Below, one piece after another: positions 2,164 through 48,461 of a stretch of DNA of 48,461 nucleotides (positions are counted from its first letter, which is position 1; every line of letters begins with the position of its first letter). The translations under genes and the position numbers were made by a program. Location: NCBI GenBank assembly GCA_009777935.1, contig WRKU01000011.1, positions 1 to 48,461 on the forward strand, read 5' to 3'. This DNA is from Coriobacteriia bacterium (lineage in GTDB: Bacteria; Actinomycetota; Coriobacteriia; WRKU01). The notes beneath the pieces were generated by a model. It was not told the DNA's origin. It was given only the letters and a program-made list of their open reading frames with translations, and ran no database searches.

Positions 2164-5100
2164 TTAGTATTCCACAATAAGCATCATAGGTTGCCACGCA
2201 CGATGCATTCTCAGTATATCTTGTATAGCTGCGGACTCAAGCTTGATACATCCGAGAGTAGAAGCGAACGCCCCACCTTGCGCCGAATCATAACTGTGCA
2301 ACCAAAAAGCACTCATGTCTCGGTTGCCGCCATTCACATCCGTGCTTGGGGTCAGCCTCACATAAGGACCAAACAATTCTCCGTACGATGCGTTATGCTT
2401 ATAAGCATCTTGAATTCGCCATTCAGTTGCACATATCACAAAATTACGCCTATCAATATTCATGCGTCGCTCACCCAAATACCATGTTCCTGGAGGTATT
2501 GGTCCATTATTTTGAGTGTATGAGAGTTTGCTGTTACCAGTAGTAGCTGGATATGACTTCAAGACAGTTTGTCCCTGTTTCATCGAAAGTGTGTTTCCAT
2601 TGAAAACAAGATGTGGCTTATATGCTGGTACTGGCTTAGGTTTGGGCTTAAACAGATTGCTAATCCAGTTTCCAACTGCCTTTAAGAACAGTCCATCAGG
2701 ATCGACATTATTGATTGGCTCACTAACACAGTAGGCATACGCGCTCAGCTCACCGTCAGCCTTGATAGGGTCTTTGCTGATGAAGGCGGCGATGGTGGGG
2801 TCGTAATAGCGTTGCGAGCAGTAGTAGAGCCCCGCCTCCGCATCCCACACATAGCCGGCATAACGTAAAGGCTGCAGATCAGCGATTACTTGAGCAAGCT
2901 CTTCGGCGATAAGCGTCGTGCCCATGACCTCTTCGGTGCGGATATTACCGTACGCGTCGTAATCGTAGCGCGCAAACGCCGAGCCACTGGTATCGCGCAG
3001 TTCACGCACGTCTCCTCGCCGGTCAGAGACAATCTCGAAAAACGTGTCTTCGCTCACGTCGTAGGACTGATAGAGCGCACCTATCGGCGTAGTGCTGTCC
3101 GCGTACAGATAGGTCAACGTCTGAGTGCTGTCAGCAGAGAAGGCCTCCAGTGCTAGCAGCCGCAAGCCATCGTAGACATATGAGGTGGTTGTCTCCACGC
3201 CTTCTTGCTCGATGGTCTTGCGGAGACGCTGGCCACCTCCGTCATAGATGTAGGCAGTCTCTCGCTCGTTGTCTACCACACCCGTTAACCGTGAGCCGTT
3301 CCACTCATACGTTGTCACCTCATCAAGGGCTTCGGCGCTCGTGCGCCGGCCAAGCTCGTCGTAAGTATAATTCGTAGTGATTGGCTCGCCCACCGGAGCT
3401 GTCTTGCTCGTATAAACCTCTATTCGGTCGATATCTACCAACTCGGTCGAGTTCGTGCGCAACCGAATAGTATGTGTTCCTTGCGGAAAGGATATTCTGC
3501 CAAGCGGCACATGATACGCAAGGCTTGGCCCAACATTACTGATAGTGGTAGCGGGTGTAGTGGATCCGTTAAGAAACACATCGAACGAGCCTAGATTGGT
3601 GTTTCGCATACCGTAAAAAACCACTTCACGACCGGTAACAGAAAAAGTTATCTCAGAACCTGCTACAACAGAACGTACCGTTACCCCACCAGAAAACACG
3701 GGGTTAGAAGACTGAGTCCACGTGCCCTTTTTAGTAATGCCTGAAGACTCGGCCTCGATTTTCTGGCTAGCATTTGTTTCCCATTTTCCGACAGCAGCTG
3801 GCGCACCTATAACCTCAATACGGTCAATCTCGACGAGGTCGGGTGTCCGTGTACGAATTTTGACAGTATGTGTACCCTGCGGAAACGTCACTCTACCTAA
3901 TTCGCGCTGATAAAGGACGGAAGACGAGGTTGCGCTACTAAAAGTTGCAGCCGGTGCCGGTGCATCATCAATGTACACTTCAAATGAGCCGAGGTGCGCA
4001 TTTGTAGCTCCAAAGAAAACCACCTCTGTTCCAGCAACCTGGAACGTCATTTCTGCGCCAGGATGAGTTTGTGCGCGCAAGGAAGATCCACCGGACAATA
4101 CCGAGGAAGTGGTTGTTGTCCAGTTTCCTCGTTTAGTTATAAGCGAATTATCCGATTCTATTTTCAGCTCAGGCTTATTCTCCCACTTGAGAAGAGAAGG
4201 GGACGTGCCGTAAATATCGATACGATCAATATGGACGCGCGCATTGGTCTTTGATACTATGCGTGCGGTATGGAAGCCTTGGTTCAGGTCAGTAACACGT
4301 CCTATCTCTTGCTGGTATACAACGTTTGGACCATGAGAGCTGATAGTAGCTCGCGGAGTAGTTTCGCCATCAAGATAAAGGTCAAACTCTCCGTGGGTTG
4401 GCGCCAGTGCCCCGATAAAACGAAGTTCATTACCGGTGAAAGCAAACGTAAGTTCAGAGCCTGCTACGTCAGTGCGCGTACACGTACCCCCTGAGAGTGC
4501 CGTGCTATTCGCACGCACCCAATTCTGGCCGTAAGTTAATGTGGCATTGTTGTCTTCGACGGCAATATTTTTTGTAGGAAGTTCTATTTCGGCCGCCTCG
4601 ACCGCTGTCTTAGATGCCACCCTCCCCATGTTGTCGTACGTGTAATGCGCTGTGCTAGGACCGCCGAATATTTCTGTGAGATTCTTCGAGATATCGAAGG
4701 CATACGTATCAGCAATATCGGCACCAATCTTGGCAGTTTTAAGTTCAGAGCGGTTCACGTTATAGCCATACGCTGCGCTCTGTTCGAGCCACGTATAGTT
4801 TGTGCCGGTAAGTTTGTTGTCGGATGCGTACGTGTACGTTGTGCTCCCTGTCTGTGAGAGCGCGCTATCAAACGCGAGGTGCCCCACACTGCTGTATGAC
4901 AGAAGATGGTTTGCCACACCAATAATACGCGAAACCGTGCGTCCCACTTCATCTCGCGTAACCGCAGTGGCAAGAGATGCTGTCTGGGTCGTATCACCGG
5001 ATACCGCCAACAAACCATACGCGAATTCGTCGCTATGTATCTCGTGAGTAGCCTGTACGCCGTTTGCAAAAGTATCGGTATACGTGGTTTTGAGATACGC

Positions 5101-8100
5101 ACTCTCGCCTGCTCCGACACGCTCATACGCAAAATCACGCACCCAGCCGCCAACATGTTCGATAGCCGATGCTACTTGTCCTTTAGCATCATACGTTGTT
5201 TCAGTTTCTTTGAGTACTGTGTCAGCACCGATGTGCACTTCACGTACAAGCCGTCCCAAATTATCGTAGGTGTACTCAATGGCCGTACCATCGTCTTGCA
5301 CAGATTGCGTGAGGCGTCCCGCACTGTCGTAATTGGCAGTTGTAATAAGGCCACCGTGGTCGCTCTCGATAACATCGCCACGCTCGTTATAACTATAGGC
5401 TGTTGTCACTCCGTCAAAATCTGTCTGTGCCAGTATCCATCCAAGCGTATTGTAGGTCGTGGTCGATGCTGCTTGCCCGGTAAGCTGCACGGCAACTTCA
5501 CGTTCGAGCAAATCATACGTGTGCGTATACTCAACGACAGGTTCTTTAGGATCGGCCGATTTTTCGGTAACCTTGACCGGCTTATTGTTGGCATTATAGG
5601 AAATCTGGGTGGTGGTTGCCGGCACCGGATTTGTCTCTGACTGCAGCTTCACATGCTTGATGACTCGACCCGCACTGTCAAAGGTCGTTTCAAAAAGAAC
5701 GCCGGCGTGCGCGCACCACACCACATTATTACTATCATCATACTCGTGCCATTTTCCCTGAAACGAGAGTTTAGTGTTATTTTCACGAATTGGCCGATTG
5801 AGACAATCGTATTGCGTCAGATCGAATACGGTTTCATGAACAGATTCTTCAGATACTGCTACCACATTACCCACATCGTCATACTCGATAGTTTCAATGC
5901 CTTCGATATCGCTACTATCATGTGCAATCTCTCGACCCAGCACGTCAAAAGTACGATCGGTACGCGAAAGTTCTTCGCCACCAGGCGCAAGAAGTTTTGA
6001 GAGAACATTGTTCCCCATAACATCGTAGGTCTCAACGATCCATTCATGCTTATCATCGTTGTTACCTGCGGTCTTATAGGTCTCTGTGACGCGTGATGTG
6101 CTGTCATATTTTATATGAGTAGTAACATCACCGGGGTCAGTTTGCGTGATCGGGCGTCCGACAATATCGTATGTCGCTTGTGTCGTTGTGCCAAGTGGCA
6201 TTATCTGCTCGACAAGATTACCAAAACCATCGTAGAGGTCAATCTGCGCGATATCTTGTGGCATAGTTTGCGCCGAGAGCTGTACATCTTTGTAGATTGT
6301 TTGCTGTGGTAAACCATTCGGAGCATGGTTGCCATACAAGATGGTTTCCCATTCATATGCGTCATTCACCTCTCGAATTGCACGACGCGTTTTAACAAGC
6401 TTGCTATCCGCATTATATTCGTATTCGGTTCTACTCTTTTCCCCTGAGGTACCGATAAGTTTTTCCTCAACAATTAAACGACCTTCGTTATCGTAGGCGA
6501 ACCACGTCACCCCTCTGCCCTCGTCAATCGTTTTGATGATATCGTTTTGATGATTATAAAAGTGTTCAGCAAGACCGCCTGCTTTATTAGTGCTACTAAG
6601 CAGGTTTCCTCTTCCATCATAAGTGAAAAGTTCTTCCGTTATTTGAGTCGTGTTCGATTTCCTGCCAAATGCGACCTTGTTATTGGGAAATTCTGCCACC
6701 GTCGGCGCCTGCGTTCCGATTAATTGGTTCTCAGAATTATAGCGAACATAGACTCCTTCATCGGCACCTGATGAAATGCTTGACCATATCACCTGTTGGG
6801 CCACGTTTATGAGATATTCGCTTCGCTCGTGACCTGCCGCAAATTCACCTTCAGGTGTAACTGATCCTTTGCTGAGAATAGTTCGTTTAGTGCTTGGATC
6901 AGCGGTGGCCACATAAGCTAAGGTGTGTCGTTGCGATGGGGCATCAGATGCGGTGTGTTCCGCGCTCAAAGACGAGACAAGGTATTCGATCTCTACGCTA
7001 TCTCCTGCCGCCGAGATATTCGTCAATCGTTGGTCGTCCATAACGTAAAGACGCGTAAGTTGTGCTTCAGTACCCGGATACTCGCATACACTGAGCATGC
7101 TGGTCATGGGAATATAGTTAATTTCACGCGTGCCTGCATCGGTCTCGTACACTGCCTCGATAGTTCCGGTATTTGTTATATTTAACTCAATGCTCTGTCC
7201 ATTGTGCGCAAGAATCGAGACTGCGTTACTACGTATGTCATAGTTCGTATACCTTTGTTGTCTGTCCTCTTCATAAAGCAGCTTGCCGTTGTGCCCATCA
7301 AATATTTTCAAACCTCCGTCAGGGAACTTGAGTTCATAAATCGCAAACGTTGAGTCTCCGCAACCATCACTTTCTTCGTAGTAGACAAGCTCTGCCTGCA
7401 TGCCGTTTGGCGAAATATATCGGCCATCTTGTGTTTTTGTAAAACTATATGAATTGCCGTCAGAACTCGTATAGATGGTAGCATCTCCCAGAAGCGAGAT
7501 ATTTTCCTCAAACCCAAACATCCACCCTTTGGGTAAGTAGGCACTTTCAAAATCACTGTCGCTTGTATATGTGCGACTCAGTACAGCATCAGGCCCCGCC
7601 GATGCAATGGCCAGGTCGACCGTCATAAGACGTGTCTCGGAACTCGAAAGAGCACCTTCGACCGTCTCATGAGCGATTTCGACGATAGGCACAAAACTGC
7701 GCTGTGTCACATCGCTTACTCGAATAGTGCGGTTTTCAAAGGTTGCTTGAACGGACGAAACGGTGCCCACTTCTATCGCATCGTGCTCCGAATAAGGACA
7801 AACTTTAAACCAGTAATTCTTGTTGTTATCGTACTGTCTATTATTAGCAGTCTTTCGATATAAGGGTCTTGGGTCATCACGAAAATCAACGCCAATGCCA
7901 CGGAAAGAATGAACTGCGGCAAGATTATCAAGTTGCCCCATCACGAACCGATTATGGACTTTATCATACACAACCGAGACTGAGCGATCGGTCGGCTGCC
8001 TATCGACATGCCATTGATTTACAACTTTTCCTGTCTTGAGGGAGACTTTGGTCATGCGTTTCGCCCCACCCCACTCGTAAAAGTAAAGGTTGCTCCCATC

Positions 8101-10584
8101 AGAAGTAACTCCATCAAAGTTTAGGTAGGGGGACTGTCCGGCTAAAGAATAGGTTTTGTCCTCGATGAATACACCGTGCTCATCATAGATACGTACCTTA
8201 ATGTTGGGGGAGGTAGAGCTTACCCTCGCCGCTGAATAAATATGGGTATCATCGGCAGCGAGCAAAACACCATTGGTCGGCCCCGTCACCTCCGCTCCAC
8301 TTCCGCGGCCAAACGGCGGCTTTGAAAGAGTCAATGTGGTCGGCACCGCCTTATCCATGATTGAACTAAGGACAAAACCCTGTATGTCTGCCGTACCGCC
8401 TCCAACACGTGTGACGTATCCGTCATAAAGCACGCCATTTTTTACGAAAGCACTCAAGGAAGTTGTTCCTGCCTGTGTAGTGGCAATCTTTTTGCCTGTG
8501 CCATAGGTCGGCAGGCCATTTGTCATGCCTGTCTTTTTGAACTGTACCCACTGGTCAGGTCCAGGATATGAGCTCCATTTTTTGACATACATGTCAGTGC
8601 CATCAAAAGCAACGACCCCTGCCCCGGCAGGATTTGAACCCACCGCACTAGGATACGTAAGCGTTGTTCTGGCAAGACGCGATTCGTCAGAGGGAGTGTT
8701 CCCATAGATATACGAATGACCGGCGAAGTTTTGCTTCAGCGCATCGATTTCGCTATCGGTCGGGAAAATGCCGCTACCTTCGCTTGACCACGTAGTAGCA
8801 CTTGGGCCCACCGTTTTCCCTACGATATTGTAGGCATTACCATCAAAAGTATAGACGAGATAACCCTTGGCATTAGGATCGGCATTCCAAGACAGATTGA
8901 TAATACCGCGTCCTTGCCCGTCACGATCATTTCTATTGTCAGCAATACCATCGTTGTTATGGTCAACCTCTTTGAACCACTCGGCGGATGCTTTAGTGGT
9001 AGCCTTGAGCCCGGTAACGGCCTTGATGTCAGCACGATATCTTACCTGAAATGTAGATTGTGTCACCCCTGACCACTCGGAGTAATACTTACGCCAGTGC
9101 GTGGTATTCTGTGATCCTCCTTCATCTTGATAGAAGGTAAATCGAGAAGGAGTATTGCCACCATTAATCCTAGCCTGCATGTAGTTTTTGAGATTGAAGA
9201 CGACCGGCTGATTACGAATAGTCGTCGTGGTGCTGGCAGCTATCCATGACACAACTCCTGGCATCGTATTCCAGGTATCATACACGCTGGGATTGCGATC
9301 GAGCTCCGCAACATACGTGGTCGTTGCTGCGTTTACATAATACTGATGAAACTGTTGAGCGTGCAGCTCTGCACGCTCTATCCGCATGCCTTTTAGGTTG
9401 GGCAGAACGAACATGGTAAGTGCACGATTATGCCCGGTCGACGAATCATAGTATCCAATCTTGAGCTCGTGAGTCCACTGATATGATGTCGTTGGATAGC
9501 GAGAGGAGGTATAGGTATCTTGGTGGCTCAGACCCCCTGCAGCCGCGATGCCTGAAAGAATCACCGGCGGATCGATACGCACCGGCCATACACGCGTGTT
9601 GTCTTGAATCCAGTCTCGATCGATGACGGCACGTAGCGTTGCCCATCCTTCGCCCCCATCCACCGCCTCCCAATAGACATCCTCACAGGCAATAAACTCG
9701 CCCTTTTCCTCATCGTAAAAGTTATCGGTTACTATCAGCCGTCCAATCTCAAGTACGGCCTCGCCCGTTTCGGGATCGATAAGTCGATATGAAGTACTTT
9801 CTTCGTCGTAAGCGAGTTCAAGACCCTCAAAGGTCAGACGAAAATCAAAAGTATGCTCATCGGTCGGTTGAGTGAGTATGAGTGTCTCTTTGATGCCCCA
9901 CCACATTGAGCGATATTCGAGGTCCACTCCCGGTGCCACATCGGTGTAGTAGGCAGTGTCGCCAAAAGCGAGCGGAACCGTGGTAGTCGCACCCGCATAC
10001 GTAAGGCTTACCTTCCATCCATCGCCCTGAATAATCGCAGCACCGTCATCACCGAAGGCACTGAACTCCATACCTTCCCTTGTCGAAAGCGGCGCAAACC
10101 CTCCGAACGTAGTGCTGGTCTCTCGTGAGGGAACCAGATTGGTCGCAATATCAATGTAACGGTCCTGTTGATCTTGGTAGTGAACCGGTCCAACTCCTAC
10201 AATTGCCTCGCGTGCGCCATCGCTAAGTTCATATATTTTTGCTGTTTCGGTGCGCTCTGCAAGAAGTTCGCGTACCTGCGTGGCGCTCTCATCGTATCCG
10301 GGCTCATCGGTTTGCACGTGCTCGGCAGGTCCGATACTTTCAGCAGGAGGAGCATAGGTAGCCTCCTCAGATAAATCAGCTAGCGAGGGGCCGCTCGGTT
10401 TGCTTGTAGGAGCATGCGAAAATTCCTCTGCGGCGCCTAAAGCCTCGATAATCTCTTCAGGAATATCTAACTGGGCAAATGCGTAGACCGGGAGTGAGAC
10501 AAAAAACATGACAGAAGCCATAACGAGCGCAATGCTTCGCAAAAATGTTGGCAATACGGATCCGTTATACGAGCGTTTCATCAT
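2164..10584 (-). CDS. Secreted RHS/YD-repeat polymorphic toxin with C-terminal L,D-transpeptidase-like tip
   Basis: A 2806-residue exported protein. Residues 1-37 form a Sec signal peptide ending AFA. In order follow: a DNRLRE-like beta domain (~350-520), a fibronectin-III-like domain with a D-rich loop DHNNDGIADN (~520-600), a propeller-like stretch (~600-880), a DUF6531-type opening of the RHS cage (~980-1065), many YD repeats (for example YDNEGRL, YDGFGNL; ~1320-1980), three tandem beta-sandwich domains (~2008-2392), more YD repeats, and the RHS-associated core (~2550-2627) ending in the hallmark DPDG. The last ~155 residues are a DUF2778/Tlde1-like L,D-transpeptidase with a GPIPPGTWYLG motif and H2763-x12-TLGC, nucleophile Cys2779. 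In this family the cage encloses the toxic tip; the tip is predicted to attack or remodel peptidoglycan peptides. Its ATG overlaps the stop of the chaperone-like gene upstream (TAATG), so the two are translationally coupled. Confidence 0.88.
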   Translation of the reverse strand: MMKRSYNGSVLPTFLRSIALVMASVMFFVSLPVYAFAQLDIPEEIIEALGAAEEFSHAPTSKPSGPSLADLSEEATYAPPAESIGPAEHVQTDEPGYDESATQVRELLAERTETAKIYELSDGAREAIVGVGPVHYQDQQDRYIDIATNLVPSRETSTTFGGFAPLSTREGMEFSAFGDDGAAIIQGDGWKVSLTYAGATTTVPLAFGDTAYYTDVAPGVDLEYRSMWWGIKETLILTQPTDEHTFDFRLTFEGLELAYDEESTSYRLIDPETGEAVLEIGRLIVTDNFYDEEKGEFIACEDVYWEAVDGGEGWATLRAVIDRDWIQDNTRVWPVRIDPPVILSGIAAAGGLSHQDTYTSSRYPTTSYQWTHELKIGYYDSSTGHNRALTMFVLPNLKGMRIERAELHAQQFHQYYVNAATTTYVAELDRNPSVYDTWNTMPGVVSWIAASTTTTIRNQPVVFNLKNYMQARINGGNTPSRFTFYQDEGGSQNTTHWRKYYSEWSGVTQSTFQVRYRADIKAVTGLKATTKASAEWFKEVDHNNDGIADNRNDRDGQGRGIINLSWNADPNAKGYLVYTFDGNAYNIVGKTVGPSATTWSSEGSGIFPTDSEIDALKQNFAGHSYIYGNTPSDESRLARTTLTYPSAVGSNPAGAGVVAFDGTDMYVKKWSSYPGPDQWVQFKKTGMTNGLPTYGTGKKIATTQAGTTSLSAFVKNGVLYDGYVTRVGGGTADIQGFVLSSIMDKAVPTTLTLSKPPFGRGSGAEVTGPTNGVLLAADDTHIYSAARVSSTSPNIKVRIYDEHGVFIEDKTYSLAGQSPYLNFDGVTSDGSNLYFYEWGGAKRMTKVSLKTGKVVNQWHVDRQPTDRSVSVVYDKVHNRFVMGQLDNLAAVHSFRGIGVDFRDDPRPLYRKTANNRQYDNNKNYWFKVCPYSEHDAIEVGTVSSVQATFENRTIRVSDVTQRSFVPIVEIAHETVEGALSSSETRLMTVDLAIASAGPDAVLSRTYTSDSDFESAYLPKGWMFGFEENISLLGDATIYTSSDGNSYSFTKTQDGRYISPNGMQAELVYYEESDGCGDSTFAIYELKFPDGGLKIFDGHNGKLLYEEDRQQRYTNYDIRSNAVSILAHNGQSIELNITNTGTIEAVYETDAGTREINYIPMTSMLSVCEYPGTEAQLTRLYVMDDQRLTNISAAGDSVEIEYLVSSLSAEHTASDAPSQRHTLAYVATADPSTKRTILSKGSVTPEGEFAAGHERSEYLINVAQQVIWSSISSGADEGVYVRYNSENQLIGTQAPTVAEFPNNKVAFGRKSNTTQITEELFTYDGRGNLLSSTNKAGGLAEHFYNHQNDIIKTIDEGRGVTWFAYDNEGRLIVEEKLIGTSGEKSRTEYEYNADSKLVKTRRAIREVNDAYEWETILYGNHAPNGLPQQTIYKDVQLSAQTMPQDIAQIDLYDGFGNLVEQIMPLGTTTQATYDIVGRPITQTDPGDVTTHIKYDSTSRVTETYKTAGNNDDKHEWIVETYDVMGNNVLSKLLAPGGEELSRTDRTFDVLGREIAHDSSDIEGIETIEYDDVGNVVAVSEESVHETVFDLTQYDCLNRPIRENNTKLSFQGKWHEYDDSNNVVWCAHAGVLFETTFDSAGRVIKHVKLQSETNPVPATTTQISYNANNKPVKVTEKSADPKEPVVEYTHTYDLLEREVAVQLTGQAASTTTYNTLGWILAQTDFDGVTTAYSYNERGDVIESDHGGLITTANYDSAGRLTQSVQDDGTAIEYTYDNLGRLVREVHIGADTVLKETETTYDAKGQVASAIEHVGGWVRDFAYERVGAGESAYLKTTYTDTFANGVQATHEIHSDEFAYGLLAVSGDTTQTASLATAVTRDEVGRTVSRIIGVANHLLSYSSVGHLAFDSALSQTGSTTYTYASDNKLTGTNYTWLEQSAAYGYNVNRSELKTAKIGADIADTYAFDISKNLTEIFGGPSTAHYTYDNMGRVASKTAVEAAEIELPTKNIAVEDNNATLTYGQNWVRANSTALSGGTCTRTDVAGSELTFAFTGNELRFIGALAPTHGEFDLYLDGETTPRATISSHGPNVVYQQEIGRVTDLNQGFHTARIVSKTNARVHIDRIDIYGTSPSLLKWENKPELKIESDNSLITKRGNWTTTTSSVLSGGSSLRAQTHPGAEMTFQVAGTEVVFFGATNAHLGSFEVYIDDAPAPAATFSSATSSSVLYQRELGRVTFPQGTHTVKIRTRTPDLVEIDRIEVIGAPAAVGKWETNASQKIEAESSGITKKGTWTQSSNPVFSGGVTVRSVVAGSEITFSVTGREVVFYGMRNTNLGSFDVFLNGSTTPATTISNVGPSLAYHVPLGRISFPQGTHTIRLRTNSTELVDIDRIEVYTSKTAPVGEPITTNYTYDELGRRTSAEALDEVTTYEWNGSRLTGVVDNERETAYIYDGGGQRLRKTIEQEGVETTTSYVYDGLRLLALEAFSADSTQTLTYLYADSTTPIGALYQSYDVSEDTFFEIVSDRRGDVRELRDTSGSAFARYDYDAYGNIRTEEVMGTTLIAEELAQVIADLQPLRYAGYVWDAEAGLYYCSQRYYDPTIAAFISKDPIKADGELSAYAYCVSEPINNVDPDGLFLKAVGNWISNLFKPKPKPVPAYKPHLVFNGNTLSMKQGQTVLKSYPATTGNSKLSYTQNNGPIPPGTWYLGERRMNIDRRNFVICATEWRIQDAYKHNASYGELFGPYVRLTPSTDVNGGNRDMSAFWLHSYDSAQGGAFASTLGCIKLESAAIQDILRMHRAWQPMMLIVEY
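2167..2637 (-). other. Tlde1/DUF2778-like L,D-transpeptidase toxin domain (tip of the RHS protein)
   Basis: This segment encodes the variable tip after the RHS core. It begins with LVFNGNTLSMKQGQ, passes SYPATTGNSK and GPIPPGTWYLG, and ends with WLHSYDSAQGGAFASTLGCI, which carries the His and Cys of the L,D-transpeptidase catalytic motif. Tlde1 effectors of Gram-negative type VI systems use this fold to cut or exchange D-amino acids in stem peptides. Here it is carried by an RHS shell with a Sec signal in what appears to be a monoderm. The segment is visibly more AT-rich than the RHS core beside it. Confidence 0.7.
3405..4566 (-). repeat. Three tandem copies of a ~115-residue beta-sandwich domain inside the RHS protein
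   Basis: Copies lie at about 4203-4566, 3803-4170 and 3405-3766. Each shares the same order of motifs: a hydrophobic opening with GNW/GTW, SGG followed by a cysteine- or valine-rich strand, AGSE(L/I/M)TF, a phrase of type E(L/V)(R/V)F(I/F/Y)GA, a GSFDVYID-like strand, LGR(V/I)..PQGTHT, and a terminal (H/E/D)IDRI(E/D)(V/I)YG. They resemble galactose- or carbohydrate-binding modules. The array interrupts the YD repeats just before the last part of the cage and may decorate the outer surface for target binding. Confidence 0.75.
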
Positions 10585-46154: not shown

Positions 46155-46182
46155 ATGACAGTTTTGTCATACCATCAGTATA
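46155..46182 (-). promoter_or_regulatory. -10 box and perfect dyad of the AbrB/VapC module
   Basis: TATACT (46182-46177, minus strand) can serve as -10. ATGACA-GTTT-TGTCAT (46155-46170) lies at the predicted start point, a position suited to repression. No convincing -35 was found. Confidence 0.55.
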
Positions 46183-46357
46183 GCATAGGCCCGGGCGGTG
46201 CTAGTTCGCAACCACCCGAGCCTGTGCGTTCCCTTTTTCGCCGACGTCTCCTGCCCATGTCGGGCATACGTTACGCGAAAGGAGATGAGTTCCCTTACCT
46301 GCTCTCTACGTGCCGCTTGACACGTACTCCCTGGCATAGCCGCTTCGCTTGGAAGGG
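46183..46357. other. Non-coding stretch between the VapC module and the DUF6273 remnant
   Basis: I see no gene, RNA or clear hairpin with a U tract here. Open frames on both strands lack ribosome binding sites and family resemblance. It may be decayed coding sequence belonging to the remnant beside it. Confidence 0.4.
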
Positions 46358-46519
46358 TCATGCGGGTAAGTCTGGACGCACGCCACGCACATTGGTGGCA
46401 GCATTGCCCGTCACGTTCCCATTGTTGTTCACGAGAGCCGCCTGAGTGGCATTCGTGCCCGGAGACCGCAACCACTGGTCGTACCAGAGAGCGGCGGAAG
46501 GCCACATGCCACTGGTGCG
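46358..46519 (-). pseudogene. Detached C-terminal remnant of a DUF6273-like surface protein
   Basis: Fifty-four codons read SGMWPSAALWYDQWLRSPG..., then ...NVTGNAATNVRGVRPDL and stop. This is the end typical of DUF6273 proteins: an LRSPG turn and a final GVRPALWV-like strand. The intact neighbour ends ...NWWSRSRGN... and ...TGGLRPALWVRQAP. There is no start codon with a ribosome binding site, and an in-frame stop lies directly upstream at 46520-46522. In the next frame upstream, KNGVVVGMSYDA could be more of the same protein after a frameshift. Confidence 0.65.
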
Positions 46520-46586
46520 TCATAACTCATTCCTACGACCACGCCGTTTTTCTGTGGCCGCACCGCTAGTGTAGCAGATGCCTCCT

Positions 46587-48420
46587 CTACGGCGCCTGCC
46601 TCACCCAGAGAGCGGGACGGAGGCCGCCAGTGGTAGCGGTAATCGCATTGCCATCGGGAGCGCCCCACGCACCAGAGCTGCTCAAGTAGCCCCATGAGCC
46701 GCTCACATTACCATAGGTACCCGCGAAGCCCGCCGCAGTGGCATCGTTACCACGAGAGCGGGACCACCAATTGCGGGTCGTCGTCGTGCCTGCGTGATTA
46801 GCACCGATCTGGTAGGCCCGTGGTGCTAGTACGTTCTCTTCTGTGTATGTCTGTGTCCCGATGTTAGGGAAGTAGCTCAGTATCTCTTTGCCCGACAGCG
46901 GGAAGGCGACAATGCCTTGACCGGTGCTTGGCGATGAGGTGGCACTAGTCGCCGGTCTGCTCGATGGTGTCGAGATTGCCTCAGGATAGTTTTCCGGATC
47001 TTGCATCCAGGCAATGTTTGCGGCCACATCAGCGTTCGTGGTGCCTGCGAGTGTGGTAACCGGGTCATGTCCGGTCAAGCCTTCGGTACCAAAGGTACGT
47101 GTCGAGCCCGCACCTGCATTGCTGCCGGTGAAATCAGCTTGCACCGCAAGAGACTTGAGGTTGTTGGTGCCTGAATCGAGGCCTGTTCCCGTAAGAGAGT
47201 TATACCAGCTGTCCATACCGGTCATCAGGCTTGATTTGGCGGTACCGGCCTCGGTGGTGAGCCAGAAGTTACCGTTGTCTTCTTCGTTAAATAATACGTT
47301 AGAGTATGCGGCCGTGGAGTCGATACCGTAGACATAGCGTGTTACTAACAGGTCATAGGTCACGCCATCAATCGTCTGTTCAGCGATACGGAAGAACTGT
47401 ACCGGGCCAAAGTCACGCCTTGTCGGAGTGACAGGCGTAGGAATGGGAGAGTCTGGCGTCCAGTTAATGTTGTCAAGGATGGCCTTGCCTTGCGTTGACG
47501 CGGCACGCAAAGGTACGCCGTCGGTACCGCTACTGGGTACGAGGCCGTCTTTCATGGCACCCACATCATCTTGGGTGACGACTTCCATCTGGATGTCTAT
47601 TGCATAGTAGAAGGCGTGTTTGAGTGGGTCAAAACCAGTAGCGGCGCTTACGCCGGTCATCAAAGGGAGCGTGTTAGTCTCTGGTCTGATAACGCTCGTA
47701 TAGTAGAAAAAGCCATCATCAGCGAGTACCCACTTGTTTAAGCGCTGTGAGAGAGGAAGTGCGGTCCACTCAGCATATGTCAGGTGATCTGAGTCCCACT
47801 CCCAATACTCGCTGAAAGGCATGCCGTCAGCGCCGTGTCCTCTGGCAGGAGAAGCATTCGTGATACTCGTTGGGTCGGTAAGGCCACGAATAGACCACAT
47901 GTCTGCGGTAACGTTAAACCAGGCCGTTTGGGTATCGATGAGAGTGCCGTCTACGCCCCAGGTGTTTGTATCAAGCGTAGGAGTAAGTGTCGTCTCGATA
48001 GCTTCAGGGATGGGCTCGGCAAAAGGAATACCTTCTATGATGTTGCGCCCACGGCTCCAATCTTCGGCCTGAATCCACTGCATGAATTCAGATGCTGAGA
48101 TGCGTGCGATAAACGGTGAGTTGCCTGAGTTTTGTACCCATACTCTCTTTTGCCACTCGGCTGCATCAAGACGCCGGAATTCATCATGAAGTACGGCACG
48201 TGGTGTCGCGTCGTTGGCAAACTGATTGATGGCGCGCTGCATCGTACCCCACGCGAATGCACCCAGAAGGAGTAAGAGCAATGCAATGATTATGGCTATA
48301 GTGGTGTTTTGGCGCTTGCGACTGCGCGGTGCATCAGTGCCGGTAGTGGCATCAGTAGAGGGCGGCTCTACCTTAGAAAGTGGAGACCCCCCCCCCCCGC
48401 AGGGTGTGGTTATCGTTCAT
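46587..48420 (-). CDS. Membrane-anchored DUF6273-like surface protein, out of frame at a G12 tract
   Basis: The main frame (48281-46587) encodes an exported protein without a proper start: it opens inside the membrane segment IAIIIALLLLLLGAFAWGT. The natural start is the ATG at 48420, with GAGGG 6 nt upstream (MNDNHTLRGGG...), but the 12 G at 48398-48387 shift it into a stop after 15 codons. With 11 G the frame joins to give ~610 residues: a cytosolic tail of ~40, one membrane segment, a region of type VWVQNSGNSPFIARI seen in TasA/camelysin-like envelope proteins, a large Thr/Ser-rich domain and a C-terminal DUF6273 module (NWWSRSRGN, then GGLRPALWVRQAP). It is probably a surface protein switched by slippage in the G tract. 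Confidence 0.75.
48387..48398 (-). repeat. Homopolymeric G12 tract in the N-terminal codons of the surface protein gene
   Basis: Twelve consecutive C on the plus strand (G on the coding strand) lie 22 bases into the gene. The open frame on both sides is restored only with 11 (or 8, or 14) G. No other run of this length was noticed in the window. Confidence 0.8.
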
Positions 48421-48461
48421 GTGTGCCCTCATTTCATAGAAAAACGTACCTAATTAACTAT

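Follow-up and report, generated by a model that had tools for sequence, protein, structure and literature searches.

The gene at the end of the stretch of DNA analysed here (one contig of 48.5 kb, referred to in full as the window) belongs to a family of BsaA-like surface proteins, which likely combine a poly-G on/off switch at the start of the gene with a lectin-like tip diversified by a DGR. Slippage of the run in cells, rewriting of the tip by the reverse transcriptase (RT) of this genome, display and binding are inferred. The source genome is a 1.1-Mb draft in 21 contigs and the assembly is 86 % complete; its RpoB has its best matches among RNA polymerases of actinobacteria. The features that we recognised in and next to the gene are as follows.

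48426..48430, minus strand: Shine-Dalgarno-like GAGGG, read directly; its context AAATGAGGGCA..ATG is common to the paralogues
48399..48420, minus strand: start codon and cytoplasmic leader ATGAACGATAACCACACCCTGC; the leader, close forms of it or a sister form precede 13 full-length paralogues
48387..48398, minus strand: G12 tract, the proposed slippage switch, from run count and frame logic
48368..48375, minus strand: stop codons closing both OFF frames, with equivalents at most 5 codons away in 17/17 paralogues
46587..48386, minus strand: long frame 3′ of the tract, 599 codons and a stop, from ORF reading and paralogue search
48246..48305, minus strand: N-terminal hydrophobic segment TTIAIIIALLLLLLGAFAWG after RSRKRQN, a signal anchor or SipW-type signal, from the translation; conserved in 17/17 paralogues
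47607..48161, minus strand: BsaA-like (SipW-dependent biofilm matrix protein) region, residues 76-260, from NCBIfam TIGR04090
46605..46766, minus strand: variable region VR1, 54 codons, in the C-terminal DUF6273-like (C-type-lectin-like) domain, from codon variation and a weak PF19789 match
46170..46590, minus strand: non-coding repeated intergenic element holding VR2 (about 46370-46490); elsewhere in the genome the element recurs about 8 times in near-full form, and VR2 has additional matches

The G12 tract, read on the minus strand of the window at 48387-48398, is the only G or C run of at least 7 nt and also the only homopolymer longer than 7 nt in the whole window, and in shuffled sequence 0.55 matches would be expected for a run of 8 G. 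It begins 22 nt from the start of the ATG at 48418-48420, which has the GAGGG site (48426-48430) spaced 5 nt upstream. With 12 G, this ATG opens only a peptide of 15 residues, MNDNHTLRGGGVSTF, closed by the TAA at 48373-48375. We also read the frames in silico for other lengths: 13 G leads to the TAG at 48368-48370, and 11 G fuses the ATG at 48420 to the 599-codon frame (46590-48386) for a total of 610 aa. The ON state thus needs a G count that leaves a remainder of 2 on division by 3 (11, 14). Two criteria of phase variation are met here, namely a homopolymer in the 5′ coding region longer than chance allows and, in silico, a change of run length that toggles between a full-length product and an early stop. 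No ATG, GTG or TTG is present in the long frame between its last stop and the G run, and its nearest internal start, TTG 48281, lies inside the membrane helix.

The preliminary description of this gene had claimed that the run blocks the long exported frame as sequenced, that 11 G would give a protein of about 610 residues and that the run is the only route from a good start to the long frame. All three claims held, the last because no upstream start serves that frame. Its reading of the run as a poly-G contingency switch sequenced in the OFF state is supported by all evidence that a sequence can offer, since 17 paralogues share the design, one of them has an ON length, the OFF frames close fast and purifying selection is seen; length change from cell to cell and expression have not been shown. 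The gene was, however, treated there as a single locus, and the family of at least 17 genes to which it belongs was missed, together with the C-terminal DGR-type variable region and the frequent poly-G runs of other members of the class, some of them in unrelated exported proteins of the same 5′ layout.

Using the window protein as query against its own genome, we obtained 37 matches on 14 contigs, and we inspected 28 stretches that surround G runs or paralogues. We count at least 17 long paralogues; each spans about 600-850 codons and opens directly after a G run of 10-15 nt, and the run precedes the membrane helix in 17/17. The 1.1-Mb genome contains 42 G runs of 8 nt or more; five diverged paralogues have no G run near the start. 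Both alternative frames stop at most 5 codons after the run in all 17 long paralogues. An intact leader and a full ORF were found in 13 paralogues, with two types of leader, ATGAACGATAACCACACCCTGC or close forms and ATGAGCACAA(C/T)TGAGAAAACCACAC, between which the closing stop codons partly differ. Twelve of these 13 are OFF and one, with 11 G, is ON, its ORF of 774 aa being open throughout. The run has 12 G at 10 of the 13 loci, 10 G at one, and 13 G at another, where a T-to-G change right after the run keeps the 12-G frame. Identical leaders may be followed by unlike lengths, as in C7:37, a contig-edge copy bearing the window's own leader (11 G), vs C11 (12 G). The run seems to be the length-variable point within otherwise conserved flanks, but this conclusion comes only from comparing paralogues and a length change at a single locus has not been shown.

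The exact run lengths have to be taken with caution. Many contigs of the draft terminate at leaders of the family and numerous runs are no more than 120 nt away from a contig end, in sequence of poor consensus. Such breaks are expected of near-identical repeats whose runs are hard to sequence, and they make exact run lengths less trustworthy. In the window the tract lies 63 nt short of the contig end; the ends of several sister contigs just beyond a G run are apparently error-laden, so the count may be off by one (12 vs 11). It could then be argued that the true length is 11, that the 12 is an assembly or base-calling error and that the genes are simply ON. The position 63 nt from the end, the garbled contig ends and the division of the draft into 21 contigs would fit this explanation. 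Against it, contig-internal runs at five loci also read 12 (C4:15132, C4:23680, C9:45743, C15:2110 and C17:3258), copies with 11 G were resolved separately, and even an 11-G run in this position would remain a slippage site; we regard it as very unlikely. An Illumina dark-cycle poly-G artefact is possible for some contig-end runs (e.g. 29 G on C12) but was ruled out for internal runs because of their conserved coding context.

The predominance of 12 G, instead of an even mix of ON and OFF, is a counterpoint to the switch model. Under programmed slippage the run would be fixed at 12 G and the RNA polymerase or the ribosome would slip on it, giving a constant in-frame fraction without any switch in DNA. 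The 12 G at 10/13 intact loci speak for this alternative, as does the good conservation of downstream frames that are nearly all formally OFF. However, the same flanks also surround runs of 10, 11 and 13 G, one of the loci is exactly in frame, and in relatives runs of 12-14 G precede long frames, some of them in frame. We consider programmed slippage unlikely, although less so than the assembly error.

The N-termini of the paralogues consist of a basic stretch followed by a hydrophobic segment of 20 residues. The TIGR04090 region was matched in 17/17 paralogues, but the window protein itself reached only 29 bits (E=7.9e-07), under the curated cutoff of 60 bits, and for this reason we do not count it as a member of the BsaA family. 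Most paralogues have a PKD/Ig-like middle part. At the C-terminus, PF19789 (DUF6273) gave weak matches in 8 of the 17 (best E=0.00029), and a single-sequence fold of this part was uninformative (pLDDT 29). No relatives of the window protein were found in named genomes and viral contigs. In the N-terminal domain of 12 paralogues the pN/pS was 0.13 at a pS of 0.55, with variation concentrated at third codon positions, and the paralogue frames contain no internal stops across 600-850 codons. From the low pN/pS and the third-position variation we infer that the formally OFF frames have been maintained long-term as protein and are not dead.

The C-terminal tip varies in a different manner. We calculated the entropy of VR1 over 10 length-matched copies; more divergent copies exist besides. 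Hypervariation affects the first two positions of eighteen codons, mostly NNC/NNT, whose third base is largely fixed: their mean entropy is 1.43/1.39/0.52 bits at positions 1/2/3, and that of the remaining VR1 codons is 0.39/0.23/0.63. A was found in 34 of the 36 hypervariable columns. With positions 1 and 2 of NNC/NNT codons varying and A present, VR1 carries the mark of a DGR, i.e. of rewritten AAC/AAT template codons, and the DGR criterion of a variable region with adenine-templated codons is met. Neither inferred-template BLAST nor an adenine-aware scan nor a pattern search turned up a VR1 template repeat in the assembly, which is 86 % complete and interrupted at these loci.

The genome gave one reverse transcriptase hit (C10:2392-3537), with the motifs QRGLALGNQSSQ and YMDDF. 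Its best match among solved structures is 8ub7 (E=4e-23), which we take to be the RT of the Bordetella phage DGR. Repeat pairs specific for A were present within the fetched flanks of 48 of the 76 nearest RT relatives in named genomes, and a control repeat scan keyed on C or G gave 0 and 2 of 39. Motifs, structure match and the repeats of the relatives show, without a tree, that the enzyme is of DGR type, so the clade criterion is also met. The ORF directly upstream is Avd-like, but the match is weak (NF033474, E=0.0056, 17 bits vs a cutoff of 80). In the other genomes of the order that we examined, this RT is absent, which, like the weak Avd match, counts against the proposed DGR.

A third explanation would be that the family is dead, the OFF copies being pseudogenes and the VR1 variation coming from recombination between paralogues and not from a DGR. 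It is consistent with 12 of the 13 intact copies being OFF and with the missing VR1 template repeat in the assembly. The pN/pS of 0.13 and the lack of internal stops over 600-850 codons argue against it, the NNY-restricted hypervariation is unlike a product of recombination or drift, and a DGR-type RT is present. Of the three rivals we rate this one lowest, as very improbable.

The intergenic element holding VR2 is about 400 nt long, starts with a promoter-like TGYTACACTAG and has a conserved tail. The VR2 segment (WLRSPG...NNNGN...GVRPD) displays NNY-type variation without a consistent reading frame. Copies of the element were found on C6, C7 (several), C9, C14 and C17, and VR2 matches at C4:49182 and C6:37895. 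VR2 was ruled out as a simple template of VR1, as its copies vary NNY-wise among themselves and do not match VR1, and also as a small gene, as the reading frame changes from copy to copy. It could be a template relic, a donor cassette or a decayed gene.

In the model that we favour, a poly-G switch combined with a DGR-diversified tip, the run separates the start codon from the membrane helix, and slipped-strand errors in it would alter its length. The sequence itself establishes the run, the frames, the family, the stops, the purifying selection, the NNY hypervariation and the DGR-type RT. Lengths of 11 or 14 G would link the start to the frame of 600-850 codons and other lengths would yield a dead peptide of 15-20 residues; as the frame depends on length in each gene, the genes are proposed to flip on and off independently. 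The single RT and its Avd-like partner, encoded on another contig, would rewrite the adenine-templated NNC/NNT codons in the lectin-like tip, and a rewritten tip may have altered binding. The predicted outcome is a mostly silent repertoire with few members displayed at once. The switch is well supported by the anatomy, and the DGR link is strong in pattern and enzyme but lacks a template. A bolder reading, towards which we are slightly more sceptical than inclined, is an antigenic-variation repertoire in which each member combines independent poly-G switching with retroelement rewriting of the tip, silent genes being diversified unseen and then displayed, with VR2 cassettes perhaps serving as templates or donors.

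Poly-G switching and DGRs are each already known, and what would be new is their union on one gene family; in the literature searched we found no paper linking DGRs with homopolymers and phase-variable genes. If the two are joined, a bacterium with a reduced genome could let the tips of silent genes mutate and display the winners afterwards, and the interplay of two hypermutation systems would become directly testable.

Translational phase variation at poly-G/C contingency loci is described from Neisseria, Campylobacter, Helicobacter and Bordetella (PMC6321876, PMC1891110). The loci described here likewise carry a G run within the 5′ coding region, have ON/OFF states that depend on the frame, encode exported or surface products and occur many times per genome. 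They differ in belonging to an actinobacterial genome, in forming a single family of paralogues that have a leader in common, in being OFF in nearly all copies (length change between cells not being shown) and in the DGR-type variable tip of the products. The DGR of Treponema denticola, with TvpA targets, uses one RT for several remote chromosomal targets, up to seven (PMC4891356). Remote chromosomal targets of one RT and a C-type-lectin-like variable region are likewise proposed here, but the VR1 copies of matching length alone number at least 10 in a genome of 1.1 Mb, and others are more divergent; the proteins also have an N-terminal BsaA-like domain and a G-run switch in front, and no template repeat has been found. 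DUF6273 has been modelled as a C-type-lectin-like, VR-bearing DGR target joined to Ig-like domains in the tentaclins of gut phages (PMC10743442). Our proteins share a VR in a DUF6273-type C-type-lectin-like domain alongside Ig-like domains; tentaclins, however, are phage receptor-binding proteins, whereas ours are chromosomal exported proteins and their Pfam match is weak. With the BsaA/TasA-type SipW-dependent matrix proteins (TIGR04090) they have in common the basic N-terminus, the hydrophobic segment and the region matching in 17/17, but the window protein scores 29 bits vs the cutoff of 60, and the Ig-like and lectin-like C-terminal parts are extra.

Regarding relatives, 7 of the 13 other genomes in the order had runs of at least 10 G, as had many further genomes of the class. 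An exported family unrelated to this one repeats the layout of short leader, 12-14 G, hydrophobic segment and long frame in one genome of the same order (G009).

Loci L140-L144 of G009: exported family, ATGACCGCCAGAA... followed by G12-14 and then the hydrophobic segment

The runs of relatives, of mixed length (12-14), precede long frames, some in frame, and in another genome, which consists of one contig (G033, locus L253), two paralogous frames of 500 codons begin similarly. Little attention has been paid to poly-G switches in this actinobacterial class, in which they may be widespread.

A second class of poly-G runs (9-13 nt) was observed in the source genome (C9:48280, C9:50703, C4:218, C9:109, C19:62 and C20:14096). 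They precede the start of several paralogues by about 125 nt and lie 5′ of a TTGCGC-N17-TATACT-like promoter. These runs are mostly preceded by a conserved CAGCCCTTTT...AGCGCCT flank. As they are located upstream of promoters, transcription could possibly be modulated too (transcriptional phase variation). At C4:26809-26820 (L074), a run of 12 G joins the upstream-type flank directly to the intragenic-type flank, and the promoter and start are missing; this junction could be an assembly chimera, or two G runs may have recombined. Elsewhere in the window, positions 2164-10584 hold an ORF of 2806 aa with RHS repeats and an N-terminal match to a carbohydrate-esterase-2 domain.
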